A stretch of 64,000 bases of DNA, from contig NZ_CP149940.1 of the NCBI RefSeq assembly GCF_037948395.1, positions 682,001-746,000 on the forward strand. Reading direction: 5' to 3'. Of this stretch, positions 18,154-42,165 are shown piece after piece; positions within the stretch are counted from its first letter, which is position 1, and every line of letters begins with the position of its first letter. Source of the stretch: Serratia nevei (GTDB lineage Bacteria; Pseudomonadota; Gammaproteobacteria; Enterobacterales; Enterobacteriaceae). The translations under genes were made by a program, and so were the position numbers. The notes under the pieces were generated by a model that saw only the letters and a program-made list of their open reading frames with translations, made no database searches and was not told where the DNA came from.

Positions 18154-18222
18154 GTTGCACTCCTGAAAAATAAGGGGGCAAGGGCATCTGAGGGGGCGAG
18201 GCGGCGTCGCCGGTTCGCTGGG

Positions 18223-18324
18223 CTCAAATCCCTCCGCCGGTATTGACCGGATCAGGTTCGACGGGTGTGCTCTCAGCGGAAAATCGGGCTTATCACGCGG
18301 CCCGACTTACCGCACCCCGTTGAG
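18223..18324 (-). ncRNA. TPP (THI-box) riboswitch of thiBPQ
   Basis: Read on the minus strand the element starts CUCAACGGGGUGC, has the CUGAGA core followed by ACCC, then the hallmark CGAACCUGAUCCGGUCA, and closes GGAGGGAUUUGAG. The first and last bases pair as the P1 helix (CUCAA/UUGAG). This is the standard TPP aptamer. The expression platform is probably occlusion of the thiB ribosome-binding site, since I saw no strong terminator between the aptamer and thiB. Confidence 0.95.
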
Positions 18325-18366
18325 ACGGCGCTATTGTAAAGATTAACCGACCCGGGCGAAAGGCGC

Positions 18367-28017: not shown

Positions 28018-28050
28018 GGCAAAAAAAAACCCGCGCAGTAGCGCGGGTTT
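28018..28050 (-). terminator. leu operon attenuator terminator
   Basis: On the minus strand the 7-bp stem CCCGCGC/GCGCGGG, extended by three A-T pairs, has a 4-nt loop and runs into nine Us. It lies between the leuL stop and the leuA start and is the expected attenuation terminator. Confidence 0.9.
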
Positions 28051-28070
28051 CTTATGGGTGATCGGCTGAG

Positions 28071-28154
28071 TCAGCTCCGAACTTCGTCCACAGGCATACC
28101 GCGCAAACAAGATGCGTTAAGTAGTAGGCCTAGTAGACGGTGAGTACGGATCAT
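28071..28154 (-). CDS. leuL: leu operon leader peptide LeuL
   Basis: The 27-aa peptide reads MIRTHRLLGLLLNASCLRG then eight more residues. It resembles E. coli LeuL (MTHIVRFIGLLLLNASSLRG) and has five leucines in six positions. Four of the five are the rare codon CTA, the feature that makes ribosome stalling sensitive to charged tRNA-Leu. The attenuator follows at 28018-28050. Confidence 0.88.
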   Translation of the reverse strand: MIRTHRLLGLLLNASCLRGMPVDEVRS

Positions 28155-28852
28155 AAGGGTTCAGCTTCTCTTAAATGGGGTGTCTGCCTAATTTGATACG
28201 TGATTGCCCTGGCGATGTCAACACCTGATTGAATGCGGGGACAATGCATCGGCGAATCGGCCGAACAGAGGATCATGCGGCAAAAAAGCGACGCCCTAGA
28301 GAAAAAACGGGGCCAGTTTGCGTGCTGCTTAGCATAAACGAATCGAATATATACTGCGCTAATTGCTTCTGGATTTCGTTGCGTTAAGATTTGTGATGAA
28401 AAAATAAGAGGAATTAATCACGGGGGGCAATAAAATAACATTTTTAATACAAATGATTTAAATTGAATTCATATGATTAATCGATTGTTTTAGTCATAAT
28501 ATAACAAAATAATGCGTTTTTACACAAAGTGAGCGGTGTTTTTAGATGGTTTGATTGCTTATGATGTGTTTCTATAGTTTGTCTCATACTGTGCGGTTAG
28601 GTTGTTTAATTGTCTTAATCATTGTTGATACCTAATTATTAGTACCACCCAGGTGGCATTCTTCCCGCTGACGGGAGAAGCTGCTGACATGTATTCCACA
28701 TACGACTTATATCGTGACGATAACACGAGGTTTTTTATCGGCTGATGGCGGTAATGGCAGGATTTGTCGTGCAAAGATAAGACAATGCGGCGTTTCATTG
28801 TTTGTCGAGCACAAGGATTAGATTATCTACACAGGATTTAGTGGAGTGAAAT
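28155..28852. other. AT-rich leuL-leuO spacer
   Basis: This roughly 700-bp spacer between the divergent leu leader and leuO is far richer in A and T than the surrounding genes, particularly 28340-28640. In E. coli the equivalent region is bound by H-NS and LeuO. It must hold the leu and leuO promoters, which I did not resolve. Near 28666-28745 there are two short inverted repeats and a possible 18-codon upstream frame (see separate entry). No other gene is visible. Confidence 0.7.
28689..28745 (+). CDS. Possible upstream open frame in the leuO leader
   Basis: An ATG at 28689 opens an 18-codon frame (MYSTYDLYRDDNTRFFIG) ending at TGA 28743-28745, about 107 bp upstream of leuO on the same strand. 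A GGGAG lies ahead, 11-12 nt from the ATG, which is rather far. A hairpin-forming CTTCCCG/CGGGAGAAG overlaps that ribosome-binding site. It could be a leader peptide or chance; I cannot tell from one sequence. Confidence 0.25.
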   Translation: MYSTYDLYRDDNTRFFIG

Positions 28853-38568: not shown

Positions 38569-38885
38569 TCGGCAACGAACGCCACGGTTTGGTCGGGGTT
38601 ATTGGCGGCGACCTGCTGCGCAACGCCAAGATCCCCCTGATTTTACTGATTGCGTCACTGGTCTCCGCGATTTTCGTGGTGACCACCGCGCACCGCACCC
38701 GCCTGCTGACCGCCGAGCGCGAACAGCTGGTTCTGGAGCGCGATGCGCTGGATATCGAGTGGCGCAACCTGATTTTAGAAGAGAACGCCCTCGGCGATCA
38801 CAGCCGGGTTGAACGTATCGCGACAGAAAAACTGCAGATGCAACACGTTGATCCATCGCAGGAAAATATCATCGTTAAACAATGA
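38565..38885 (+). CDS. ftsL: Cell division protein FtsL (GTG start)
   Basis: FtsL is a bitopic divisome protein that joins FtsB and FtsQ and helps activate FtsWI. The 106-aa product has a short cytoplasmic segment, one transmembrane helix (about residues 22-42) and a periplasmic leucine-zipper coiled coil. The block [23 protein letters not shown] is essentially that of E. coli. It is shorter than the 121-aa E. coli protein: its GTG start overlaps the rsmH TGA, and the frame closes a few codons upstream, so the missing N-terminal extension is real. Confidence 0.95.
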
Positions 38886-38927
38886 ATGGTTTAACCGGAA
38901 TAATGACACGGAGTAGAAAGGAAACGC

Positions 38928-40691
38928 ATGAAAGCAGCGCGCCCCGGTAAGTTGAGACGCCAGGAAGATCAGGCCAGCTTTGTCAGCTGGCGTTTTGCGT
39001 TGCTGTGCGGCTGCATTTTGCTGGCGATGGTTGGCCTGATGCTGCGCGTCGCGTACCTGCAGGTCATCAACCCCGATCGTCTGGTGAAAGAAGGCGACAT
39101 GCGTTCGCTGCGCGTGCAGGAAGTGCCGACCGCGCGCGGCATGATCAGCGATCGCGCCGGCCGTCCGTTGGCGGTCAGCGTGCCGGTCAATGCGGTGTGG
39201 GCGGATCCGAAAGAGCTGAACGAGCGCGGCGGTATCACGCTGGACAGCCGTTGGAAAGCGCTTTCTGATGCGCTGAACATCCCGCTGGACCAACTCTCCA
39301 ACCGCATCAACGCCAACCCGAAAGGGCGCTTCGTTTATCTGGCGCGCCAGGTGAACCCGGCGATCGGCGACTACATCCACAAGCTCAAGCTGCCGGGGAT
39401 CTACCTGCGGCAGGAGTCGCGCCGGTACTACCCGGCGGGGCAGGTGACGTCGCACATCATCGGCGTGACCAACATCGACGGACAAGGCATTGAAGGCGTC
39501 GAGAAGAGCTTCGACCGCTGGCTGACCGGGCAACCGGGCGAGAGAACGGTGCGTAAGGACCGCTTCGGCCGGGTCATCGAAGATATTTCCTCCGTAGACA
39601 GCCAGGCGGCGCACAACCTGGTGCTGAGCGTCGATGAACGCCTGCAGGCGCTGGTGTATCGCGAGCTGAACAACGCGGTGGCGTTCAACAAGGCCGAGTC
39701 GGGCACTGCGGTGCTGATCGACGTGAACACCGGCGAAGTGCTGGCGATGGCCAACAGCCCGTCTTACAACCCGAACAACATGGCCGGTACGCCGAAAGAG
39801 ACCATGCGTAACCGTGCTATCACCGATATTTTTGAACCCGGTTCAACCGTGAAGCCGATGGTGGTGATGACCGCGCTGCAAAACGGCGTGGTGAGAGAAA
39901 ACAGTGTGTTGAACACCATCCCGTACCGCATTCAGGGCCACGAGATCAAAGACGTGGCGCGGTACTCGGAGCTGTCATTGACCGGGATCTTGCAGAAGTC
40001 GAGTAACGTCGGTGTTTCAAAGCTGGCGTTAGCGATGCCGTCCTCAGCGTTAGTAGATACTTACTCTCGTTTTGGGCTGGGAAAAGCGACCAATTTGGGG
40101 CTGGTCGGAGAAAGCAGTGGCATATACCCAAAAAAACAACGGTGGTCTGACATAGAGAGGGCCACCTTCTCTTTCGGCTACGGGCTGATGGTAACTCCGT
40201 TACAGTTGGCGCGAGTCTATGCAACGATCGGCAGCCTGGGCGTATATCGCCCATTGTCGATCACCAAGGTTGACCCTCCGGTCGCCGGCGAACGCGTTTT
40301 CCCTGAACCTCTGGTGCGCACCGTGGTGCACATGATGGAAAGCGTGGCCTTGCCGGGCGGCGGCGGCGTGAAAGCCGCCATCAAGGGATACCGTATTGCC
40401 ATCAAAACCGGTACCGCGAAAAAAGTGGGCCCGGACGGCAAATACGTCAACCGATACATCGCTTATACCGCCGGCGTCGCGCCGGCAAGTAACCCCCGTT
40501 TTGCCCTGGTGGTCGTCATCAACGACCCTCAGGGGGGGAAATACTATGGTGGCGCAATCTCCGCGCCGGTGTTCGGTGCCATCATGGGCGGCGTATTGCG
40601 CACCATGAACGTCGAGCCTGACGCGTTGCCTACCGGTGACAAAAGCGAATTAGTGATTAACAAGAAAGAGGGTTCAGGTGGCAGATCGTAA
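38928..40691 (+). CDS. ftsI: Septal peptidoglycan transpeptidase FtsI (PBP3)
   Basis: FtsI cross-links septal peptidoglycan as partner of the glycosyltransferase FtsW and is a beta-lactam target. The 587-aa product (E. coli 588) has a short cytoplasmic tail, one transmembrane helix (about residues 20-42), the PBP dimer/pedestal domain, and transpeptidase motifs SxxK (GSTVKPM, about residue 306), SxN (SSNVG) and KTG (IKTGTAKK). Codon use changes abruptly at about 39985-40235, with clusters of codons rare in its neighbours (ATA, AGG, GGA, TTA, CGA). This coincides with a likely internal small RNA (see FtsO). Confidence 0.98.
40090..40175 (+). ncRNA. ftsO: Candidate FtsO: ftsI-internal sRNA sponge of RybB
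   Basis: FtsO is an Hfq-bound RNA inside the E. coli ftsI coding region, reported to sponge the small RNA RybB. Here AAAGCAGTGGC (40111-40121) is perfectly complementary to the first 11 nt of RybB as I recall it (GCCACUGCUUU). At 40141-40166 GGTGGTCT pairs with GGGCCACC (8 bp, some G-U) around a 10-nt loop, followed by TTCTCTTTC, a terminator-like 3' end. Codons across this stretch are atypical, which suggests selection on RNA sequence. The 5' end is an estimate, and RybB itself is outside this window. Confidence 0.65.
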
Positions 40692-42165
40692 TTTGCGCGA
40701 CTTACTCGCCCCGTGGGTGCCGACGGCACCCGGGCGCGCGCTGCGGGAAATGACATTAGACAGCCGTGTGGCGGCTGCCGGGGATCTGTTTGTCGCCGTT
40801 GTCGGCCATCAAACGGATGGACGCCGCTATATTCCGCAGGCCATCGCGCAGGGCGTCTCCGCCGTGATCGCCGAAGCTGACGGTCAGGCCGAAGACGGCG
40901 CCATCATTGAAATGCATGGCGTGCCGGTGATCTACCTGAGCCAACTGAACCAGCGCCTTTCCGCGCTGGCCGGGCGTTTTTACCACCAGCCGGGCGAGCG
41001 TCTGCGTCTGGTCGGCGTGACCGGTACCAACGGCAAAACCACCACCACCCAACTGCTGGCGCAGTGGAGCCAACTGCTGGGCGAAACCAGCGCGGTGATG
41101 GGCACCGTCGGCAACGGCCTGCTGGGCCAGGTGTGCCCGACCGAGAATACCACCGGTTCTGCGGTGGATGTTCAACACGTATTAAACGATTTGGCGGAAC
41201 AGGGCGCGACCTTCGCCGCCATGGAAGTCTCTTCCCACGGTCTGGTGCAACACCGGGTGGCGGCGCTGCCGTTCGCCGCGGCGGTCTTCACCAACCTGAG
41301 CCGCGATCACCTGGATTACCACGGTGACATGGCCAATTACGAGGCGGCCAAATGGTCGCTGTTCGCCGCCCACAGCGTGGGGCAGGCGATCATCAACGCC
41401 GACGATGAAGTCGGTCTGCGCTGGCTGAGCAAGCTGCCGGATGCGGTGGCGGTGACGATGCAGGGTAACCTGCAGCCGGGCGGCCACGGCCGCTGGCTGA
41501 AAACCACGGCGGTCGATTATCACGACAACGGGGCCACCGTTCGTTTCAGCTCCAGCTGGGGCGATGGCGAGATCGAAAGCCGCCTGATGGGCGCTTTCAA
41601 CGTCAGCAACCTGCTGCTGGCCTTGGCGACGCTGCTGTCGCTGGGCTATCCGCTGGAGGCGCTGGTGGAAACCGGCAGCCGCCTGCAGCCGGTCTGTGGC
41701 CGCATGGAAGTGTTTAACGCGCCGGGCAAACCGACGGTAGTGGTGGATTACGCCCACACGCCGGATGCGCTGGAGAAAGCGTTGGAAGCCGCGCGCCTGC
41801 ACTGCCAGGGGCAGCTGTGGTGCGTGTTCGGCTGCGGCGGCGATCGCGACAAGGGCAAGCGTCCGCTGATGGGCGGCATCGCCGAGCAGTTCGCCGATCG
41901 CGTGGTGATCACCGATGACAACCCGCGTACCGAAGAGCCGCGCGCGATTATCAACGATATCCTGACCGGATTGCTGGACGCCGGGCAGGCGCTGGTGATC
42001 CACGGCCGCGCCGAAGCGGTGACCAGCGCCATCATGCAGGCGCAGGAACAGGATGTGGTGTTGGTGGCAGGCAAAGGCCACGAAGATTATCAGTTGGTGG
42101 GCAACCGCCGCCTGGATTACTCCGACCGCACGACGGTCGCCCGACTGCTGGGGGTGCTGGCATGA
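40678..42165 (+). CDS. murE: UDP-MurNAc-tripeptide synthetase MurE (GTG start)
   Basis: MurE adds meso-diaminopimelate to UDP-MurNAc-L-Ala-D-Glu. The 495-aa product (E. coli 495) has the ATP P-loop [13 protein letters not shown] (about residues 113-125) and DNPR, the motif typical of enzymes selecting diaminopimelate. The start is GTG ([13 protein letters not shown]); it overlaps the last codons of ftsI. Confidence 0.97.

Follow-up and report, generated by a model that had tools for sequence, protein, structure and literature searches.

The window, i.e., the whole stretch of DNA analysed here (64,000 nt), corresponds to positions 682001-746000 of contig 1 in the 5.46-Mb, two-contig genome of Serratia nevei. 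It contains the following gene and internal elements:

38928..40691, plus strand: ftsI (PBP3), the host gene, a 587-aa ORF with 85% identity to K-12 FtsI
39997..40170, plus strand: probable FtsO orthologue, projected from K-12 RefSeq ftsO (92485-92658) via the codon alignment
39999..40235, plus strand: strong synonymous-constraint block, codons 358-436, measured in 90 RybB-bearing genomes plus K-12

A second ftsI-like gene of the same genome (L039; G000:C1:2489011-2490675) is 51% identical and lacks the FtsO pattern. The genome also carries a single-copy rybB (107.4 bits), which starts GCCACTGCTTT / GCCACTGCTTTTC, and one hfq match (E 2.9e-29). An Rfam scan of 38700-40800 with E values up to 1 returned nothing beyond one chance-level match. 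Over the whole window, the same database yielded two ordinary elements above the cut-off, namely, a leu operon leader (28023-28170, minus strand) and a TPP riboswitch (18211-18329, minus strand).

Synonymous constraint was quantified as the per-codon identity excess above the expectation derived from each genome's own codon usage. The survey took in roughly one genome for each genus of the GTDB family, 149 in all; an ftsI match at the cut-off was present in 116, and 113 were codon-aligned, leaving out G065 and G086 (internal stops) and G060. The first-pass annotation had pointed to an abrupt switch in codon choice at about residues 353-436, and the counts agree. The codons ATA, AGG, GGA, TTA, CGA, and TCA total 11 of 84 inside this segment versus 7 of 503 outside (Fisher p = 3.8e-6, a value that flatters the difference because the codon list was chosen after viewing the region). 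Individually, the inside and outside frequencies are 2/4 Ile codons versus 0/30 for ATA, 1/4 Arg codons versus 0/39 for AGG, 2/10 versus 2/47 for GGA, 3/10 versus 1/41 for TTA, 1/4 versus 1/39 for CGA, and 2/11 versus 3/29 for TCA. The measured block (39999-40235) is in close agreement with the region first proposed on these grounds (39985-40235). Across the 90 genomes and K-12, synonymous divergence in the segment is unequal to that in the rest of ftsI, with identity exceeding expectation by 0.25 to 0.39 per ten-codon window over codons 351-430. Wobble identity to K-12 at shared residues follows the same profile, with 49 of 54 codons in 358-416 and 13 of 19 in 417-436, as opposed to 133 of 226 in codons 60-340 and 65 of 121 in 441-580. 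Within the window's genus (30 rows), codons varying at an unchanged residue number 15/51 in 358-416 and 9/19 in 417-436, compared with 191/218 in 60-340 and 85/105 in 441-580. It is extremely improbable that this pattern arises without any RNA, from ordinary translation-level codon selection or from conservation of the protein alone. The encoded stretch is indeed highly conserved, and some codon sharing is expected; however, codon identity over codons 361-420 reaches 0.63 to 0.77 against an expected 0.31 to 0.45, and seven genomes of at least 3.3 Mb contradict the explanation by keeping the FtsI protein while losing the codon pattern. Furthermore, no excess over codons 358-416 was seen in five paralogues (L037-L040 and L052) or in the 11 matches belonging to other families of this order (z, -1.5 to 1.9).

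Weaker synonymous-constraint peaks were observed in ftsL (38745-38789; excess, 0.24) and murE (41563-41622; excess, 0.27), two genes in which decRNAs have been reported (PMC6156199). Constraint at 40653-40707 is expected because the end of ftsI and the start of murE overlap there. The strongest covariation in ftsI involves the column pair 39547/39594 (CG, 0.49; TA, 0.45); no helix containing that pair was seen, and the signal may reflect protein covariation or clade structure.

The segment 39997-40170 is, with high probability, the orthologue of FtsO, an RNA probably cut by RNases from the ftsI mRNA that, aided by Hfq, sponges RybB. We thus regard it as an already known RNA in a new genome, a well-supported orthologue as judged from its sequence. 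It shares with FtsO (ftsI-decRNA) of E. coli K-12 the host gene, the codons, the RybB-complementary core GCAGTGGC, and the hairpins. The two differ in the contiguous match to RybB (11 nt in the window, 8 nt in K-12) and in residue 396, which is Ser (AGC) in the window and Arg (CGC) in K-12; moreover, K-12 FtsO is a detected RNA and its counterpart in the window a predicted one. The initial proposal that the sponge is conserved in this genome is supported by the K-12 ftsO codons, the match to the genome's own RybB, and the wobble constraint.

Previous work provides the frame for this assignment. In E. coli, FtsO is described as an Hfq-associated RybB sponge that lowers RybB, as backed by compensatory mutations, and its wobble identity among 18 gammaproteobacteria is given as 91% versus 67% (PMC7815308). 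The same report names the Salmonella homologue STnc475, suggests that FtsO connects to the sigma-E response in E. coli, presents it as the first CDS-internal bacterial RNA with a documented regulatory role, and leaves open its timing and mode of production (PMC7815308). RbsZ and the 3'ETS of leuZ of E. coli likewise titrate RybB; the likeness is one of description, and FtsO differs from both in being CDS internal (PMC7815308). As ftsI-decRNA, the molecule was reported to be 173 nt long, to outnumber ftsI mRNA about 45-fold, and to be more conserved at synonymous positions than the remainder of the gene; ftsL-, mraZ-, and murE-decRNAs are further stable fragments of the same operon transcript (PMC6156199). 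FtsO half-life in E. coli is reported as 12.8 min versus 0.6 min for ftsI mRNA (PMC10349824), and in Salmonella FtsO is said to be cut out of the ftsI mRNA (PMC10998600). An ftsI 3' end at the same position has been described for Klebsiella pneumoniae, Salmonella enterica, ETEC, and Shigella flexneri (PMC10687069). Our literature search found no paper combining FtsO, sRNA, and Serratia.

Consensus and single-sequence folds were combined into a five-stem model, which was tested on 100 sequences and arranges the segment as follows:

39998..40036, plus strand: stem-loop 1 (98.1% of cells paired; double changes in 2 of 14 pairs)
40041..40076, plus strand: stem-loop 2 (94.7% of cells paired; pair 40050/40067 is UA in 55, CG in 29, UG in 4, and unpaired in 12 of 100)
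40087..40107, plus strand: stem-loop 3 (99.0% of cells paired; double changes in 2 of 6 pairs)
40111..40121, plus strand: predicted RybB-pairing site, AAAGCAGTGGC, 11 nt against RybB nt 1-11
40122..40140, plus strand: A-rich linker, read from the sequence and unpaired in the model
40141..40166, plus strand: stem-loop 4, the hairpin of the first-pass annotation (99.1% of cells paired; zero double changes)
40167..40183, plus strand: pyrimidine-rich linker with the projected FtsO 3' end (~40170), from the sequence and the K-12 annotation
40184..40210, plus strand: stem 5, a hairpin just 3' of the FtsO end (96.9% of cells paired; double change in 1 of 11 pairs)

Overall, 97.3% of cells are paired, and 46 double-change cells were counted, compared with 14.9 in shuffles and 5 to 24 in slid controls; seven pairs showed double changes (shuffles, 3.8; one slid control, 9). 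With no double change in stem 4 and one in stem 5, covariation says little about either. Wobble excess is higher in stems (0.39; n = 36) than at the other positions (0.27; n = 31; p = 0.012), which drop to 0.22 when the seed, linker, and tail are excluded (n = 17; p = 0.0025), and the freest wobble codons (423, 386, 371, 401, 385, and 364) all lie outside stems. The most structured 60-nt windows of ftsI fall at 40128-40223, with mean z values down to -2.2 in 24 FtsO-bearing genomes versus +0.8 to -0.6 in 7 FtsO-less genomes. RNAalifold alone recovered stems 1, 3, and 4 and part of stem 2. It also placed an extra helix at 40108-40112/40167-40171 and formed two weak pairs within the RybB site; in all, 6 of the 11 site nucleotides are weakly paired (40111-40112 with the tail; 40114-40115 with 40120-40121). 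Stem 5 appears when the window and K-12 sequences are folded singly; RNAalifold pairs this stretch in another register.

An opposite-strand gene, i.e., a 102-aa frame at 39946-40254 on the minus strand, could also impose wobble constraint. Within 39985-40235, 51 of 91 genomes have no stop in that frame; synonymous shuffles made separately for each genome predict 6.7. The 16 tiled windows wholly upstream of the block are open in 0 or 1 of 91 genomes and those downstream in 0, and 58 of 78 FtsO-bearing genomes retain a TTG at 40222. However, the genomes share one conserved RNA sequence, so the expectation amounts to little more than one draw (the open-frame probability of the window's own sequence is 0.10). 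Stops interrupt the frame in 40 of 91 genomes, K-12 included, and one at 40018 occurs in 17 of 78 FtsO-bearing genomes; no ATG start is conserved in relatives. Free variation outside stems, double changes that preserve sense-strand stems, and the known RNA on the sense strand also speak against such a gene, which we consider very unlikely and rejected as a candidate on account of the stops, the lack of a conserved ATG, and the variation outside stems. The other two plus frames and two other minus frames contain stops in most of the 91 genomes.

The site postulated at 40111-40121, AAAGCAGTGGC, is a perfect 11-nt reverse complement of the 5' end of the rybB from the same genome; a mismatch at this RybB end had been singled out beforehand as a possible refutation, and the end matches. 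This 11-mer occurs four times in the 5.46-Mb genome (13 times for a backward control pattern): in ftsI, opposite rybB, in a phage-like gene, and in an integrative/conjugative-element-like gene, the last two being labelled from their translations. It makes the best predicted duplex with RybB in the window's ftsI (-22.4 versus -17.6 kcal/mol), and the site likewise ranks first within ftsI for predicted RybB pairing in 37 of the 47 genomes compared, an uneven sample because 20 of the 49 rybB sequences compared were picked for odd FtsO sites (the rybB locus L161 was left out). Seed codons 395-398 have a wobble excess of 0.41 to 0.70 though unpaired in the five-stem model, and folding in windows that span the site is weaker than in synonymous shuffles (mean z, +1.3 and +1.4; these windows cut stem 4). 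By itself, the 11-mer is weak proof, since the paralogue L040 also carries it, without the FtsO constraint pattern, presumably by chance because Glu-Ser-Ser-Gly is common there.

The pairing had further been claimed to be longer than in E. coli. The 8 nt quoted for the latter are correct for K-12 ftsI (GAACGCAGTGGC), as compared with a RybB seed taken from other family members (first 16 nt identical in 42 of 49), but the 11-mer is found in 32 of the 90 RybB-bearing genomes and gains only about 1 kcal/mol: RybB nt 1-16 and the site give -22.4 kcal/mol here versus -21.4 in most genomes with CGC at codon 396. Among the remainder of the 90, 39 match over the 8-mer or a little beyond it, 6 retain the core with a single G-U pair, and 13 fall into none of these groups. 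CGC stands at codon 396 in 38 of the RybB-bearing genomes, which together with K-12 make 39 rows that form one clade with top SH-aLRT support. The shorter match thus fits a single change to Arg396 in the E. coli clade (rows and clade were compared by hand, the root was not inferred, and direction is by parsimony), and the 11-mer is common outside it.

Comparison across relatives relates FtsO to RybB by count. With an FtsO cut at a z of 5.5, 118 rows split into 81 with RybB and FtsO, 22 with neither, 13 with RybB only, and 2 with FtsO only. RybB is thus a strong predictor of FtsO by count, but not a significant one once relatedness is included (independent pairs favour the association 4 to 0, with 3 ties; median p, 0.125). 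Six genomes of 3.3 to 5.0 Mb (G149, G067, G109, G165, G180, and G200) have RybB with an unchanged seed plus hfq and show an FtsO pattern that is faint or missing; in G169, RybB and FtsO are both absent. Of the named loci, Lonsdalea quercina has neither the site nor the hairpin, and Pectobacterium aroidearum has both. The hfq gene was found in 37 of 40 genomes checked, and a search of 28 RybB-less or reduced genomes with laxer filters placed rybB above the cut-off in 3, all from the window's genus. In L128 (G158) and L142 (G098) the RybB site is broken, yet the FtsO pattern is largely retained; RybB is therefore not the sole cause of the constraint, and FtsO probably has a function beyond RybB binding. 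CpxQ was considered as a second partner; the best duplexes of K-12 CpxQ fall at ~40073 in K-12 versus ~40179 in the window, with no consistent site.

Three reduced relatives, L210 (G006), L211 (G009), and L212 (G091), have changed RybB seeds or a degenerate rybB remnant and a mostly intact FtsO. Seed co-evolution was considered for the reduced genomes G107 and G089, whose altered RybB seeds initially seemed to be matched by compensatory changes in FtsO, and was rejected. Duplex energies gave the idea no backing: they are -10.6 and -14.7 kcal/mol, respectively, for their own RybB with their own FtsO, -12.9 and -12.9 for consensus RybB with their own FtsO, and -12.6 and -19.6 for their own RybB with the window's FtsO.

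At the FtsO 3' end, the hairpin and tail described in the first-pass annotation are in place, with eight pairs (40141-40148/40159-40166) located 20 nt past the site and followed by TTCTCTTTC at 40167-40175, but they did not match a simple terminator pattern. Our scan (a stem, a loop of 3 to 8 nt, and then at least 5 T in 8) flagged three sites in the region, and the 40141-40166 hairpin was not among them. Constraint extends 65 nt past the projected 3' end, over stem 5. The median z of codons 417-436 is 0.9 in 7 FtsO-less large genomes versus 5.4 in 77 FtsO-bearing genomes (p = 1.8e-9), with the gene background somewhat lower in the former (3.4 versus 5.3; p = 0.0008) and the score of a separate 5' hairpin (see below) unaffected (2.5 versus 3.0; p = 0.73). 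Over 113 genomes, FtsO correlates with the downstream stretch at 0.88 (0.75 after subtracting background) and with the 5' hairpin at 0.33 (0.23). These comparisons and correlations ignore relatedness. The FtsO cut (z of 5.5 or more) and the set of seven FtsO-less genomes were chosen after seeing the scores, so a comparison of FtsO itself is circular and only the downstream stretch and the 5' hairpin are informative. Since the downstream stretch is kept or lost with FtsO, it would serve FtsO, most likely in 3'-end formation.

Intrinsic termination at 40141-40166, that is, attenuation within ftsI rather than cleavage, is an unlikely origin of this end. A stem-loop followed by a pyrimidine tract, nearly invariant, is what termination would call for, but the scan missed this hairpin, and termination alone needs no constraint 65 nt beyond the end that is lost together with FtsO. 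Adams et al. favoured RNase processing for the FtsO 3' end (PMC7815308), and most members of the excised-RNA set of Dar and Sorek are reported to drop upon RNase E inactivation (PMC6156199). Constraint past the end rather fits, we infer, cleavage between two hairpins.

A separate element, distinct from FtsO, lies near the start of ftsI:

38973..38991, plus strand: 7-bp hairpin at codons 16-22, GCCAGCT-TTGTC-AGCTGGC (96.6% of cells paired, 110 sequences)
38992..39002, plus strand: conserved U-rich tail of that hairpin, GTTTTGCGTTG (CGT in 89/91, TTT in 84/91, and TTG, codon 25, in 88/91; aligned with nt 68-78 of K-12 ftsI)

Among 294 ten-codon windows across rsmH-ftsL-ftsI-murE, the one holding this element shows the strongest wobble constraint, with an excess of 0.51 versus 0.46 for the best FtsO window (57 genomes). 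The 110 sequences contain 44 double-change cells against 18.7 in shuffles; just two pairs have double changes (shuffles, 1.1; 28 of the 500 shuffles reached two), and 17 sequences do not form the outermost pair. Pair 38977/38987 is GC in 63, AU in 43, GU in 3, and broken in 1, the change replacing Ser17 by Asn17 in one arm and being synonymous in the other. In covariation, this pair is 7th among the 128,402 ftsI column pairs, the higher ranks lying in no visible helix. On a 123-row tree of RybB-bearing genomes and named loci, the two sides co-changed in six of six independent cases (median p, 0.031; range, 0.031 to 0.0625), and on an earlier tree with reduced genomes the tally was 4 to 0 (p = 0.125). 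On visual inspection, two Proteus loci have a disrupted hairpin, and sequences from outside the family have none. It was flagged by the terminator scan, a pattern that is weak alone because the region has three such sites versus 2.2 (sd, 1.4) in shuffles. We saw no mention of the hairpin in the passages and sections consulted from papers on ftsI mRNA or ftsI-ftsL attenuation, and the word ftsL is absent from the main text of PMC7815308. At the level of a guess, it might belong to the ftsL-decRNA (PMC6156199); its function is likewise a matter of guesswork.

Taken as a whole, the observation that opened this work is confirmed, and its interpretation is partly supported. In the proposed mechanism, RNases would cut the ftsI mRNA and leave a stable folded RNA of ~174 nt (39997-40170) comprising four stem-loops, with the RybB-complementary site between stem-loops 3 and 4. 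Hfq-aided pairing with the RybB seed would lower RybB and thereby relieve repression of outer-membrane protein mRNAs, and the conserved hairpin at 40184-40210, after the 3' end, probably helps to form that end. Constraint, the match to the genome's own RybB, the hfq gene, and double changes in stems 1 to 3 are all present in these sequences, from which we infer that FtsO works in this way in Serratia nevei.

A broader reading, which we hold tentatively and at somewhat less than even chances, is that ftsI has two separately maintained RNA elements, the codon 16-22 hairpin ending a short RNA and FtsO freed by a cut in the linker. The hairpin would be kept by compensatory change even where FtsO is lost and would mark where a short RNA arising at the ftsL-ftsI junction has its 3' end. 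That RNA would be the published ftsL-decRNA or else would be produced by a translation-coupled attenuator limiting ftsI and the genes behind it; in the attenuator version, a ribosome on codons 10-20 would melt the hairpin. The cut for FtsO would then take place in the pyrimidine-rich linker, with 40184-40210, outside the mature RNA, as the processing signal.

These results make two additions to the known FtsO, namely, a linked stretch behind its 3' end and a separate 5' hairpin. The conserved hairpin stretch outside the mature RNA, kept or lost with FtsO, offers one handle on FtsO, and the natural losses, in genomes with RybB and Hfq but without FtsO, offer a second. PBP3, the product of ftsI, is a beta-lactam target. 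If the codon 16-22 hairpin ends an RNA, it would constitute a further control point at the start of this essential gene.
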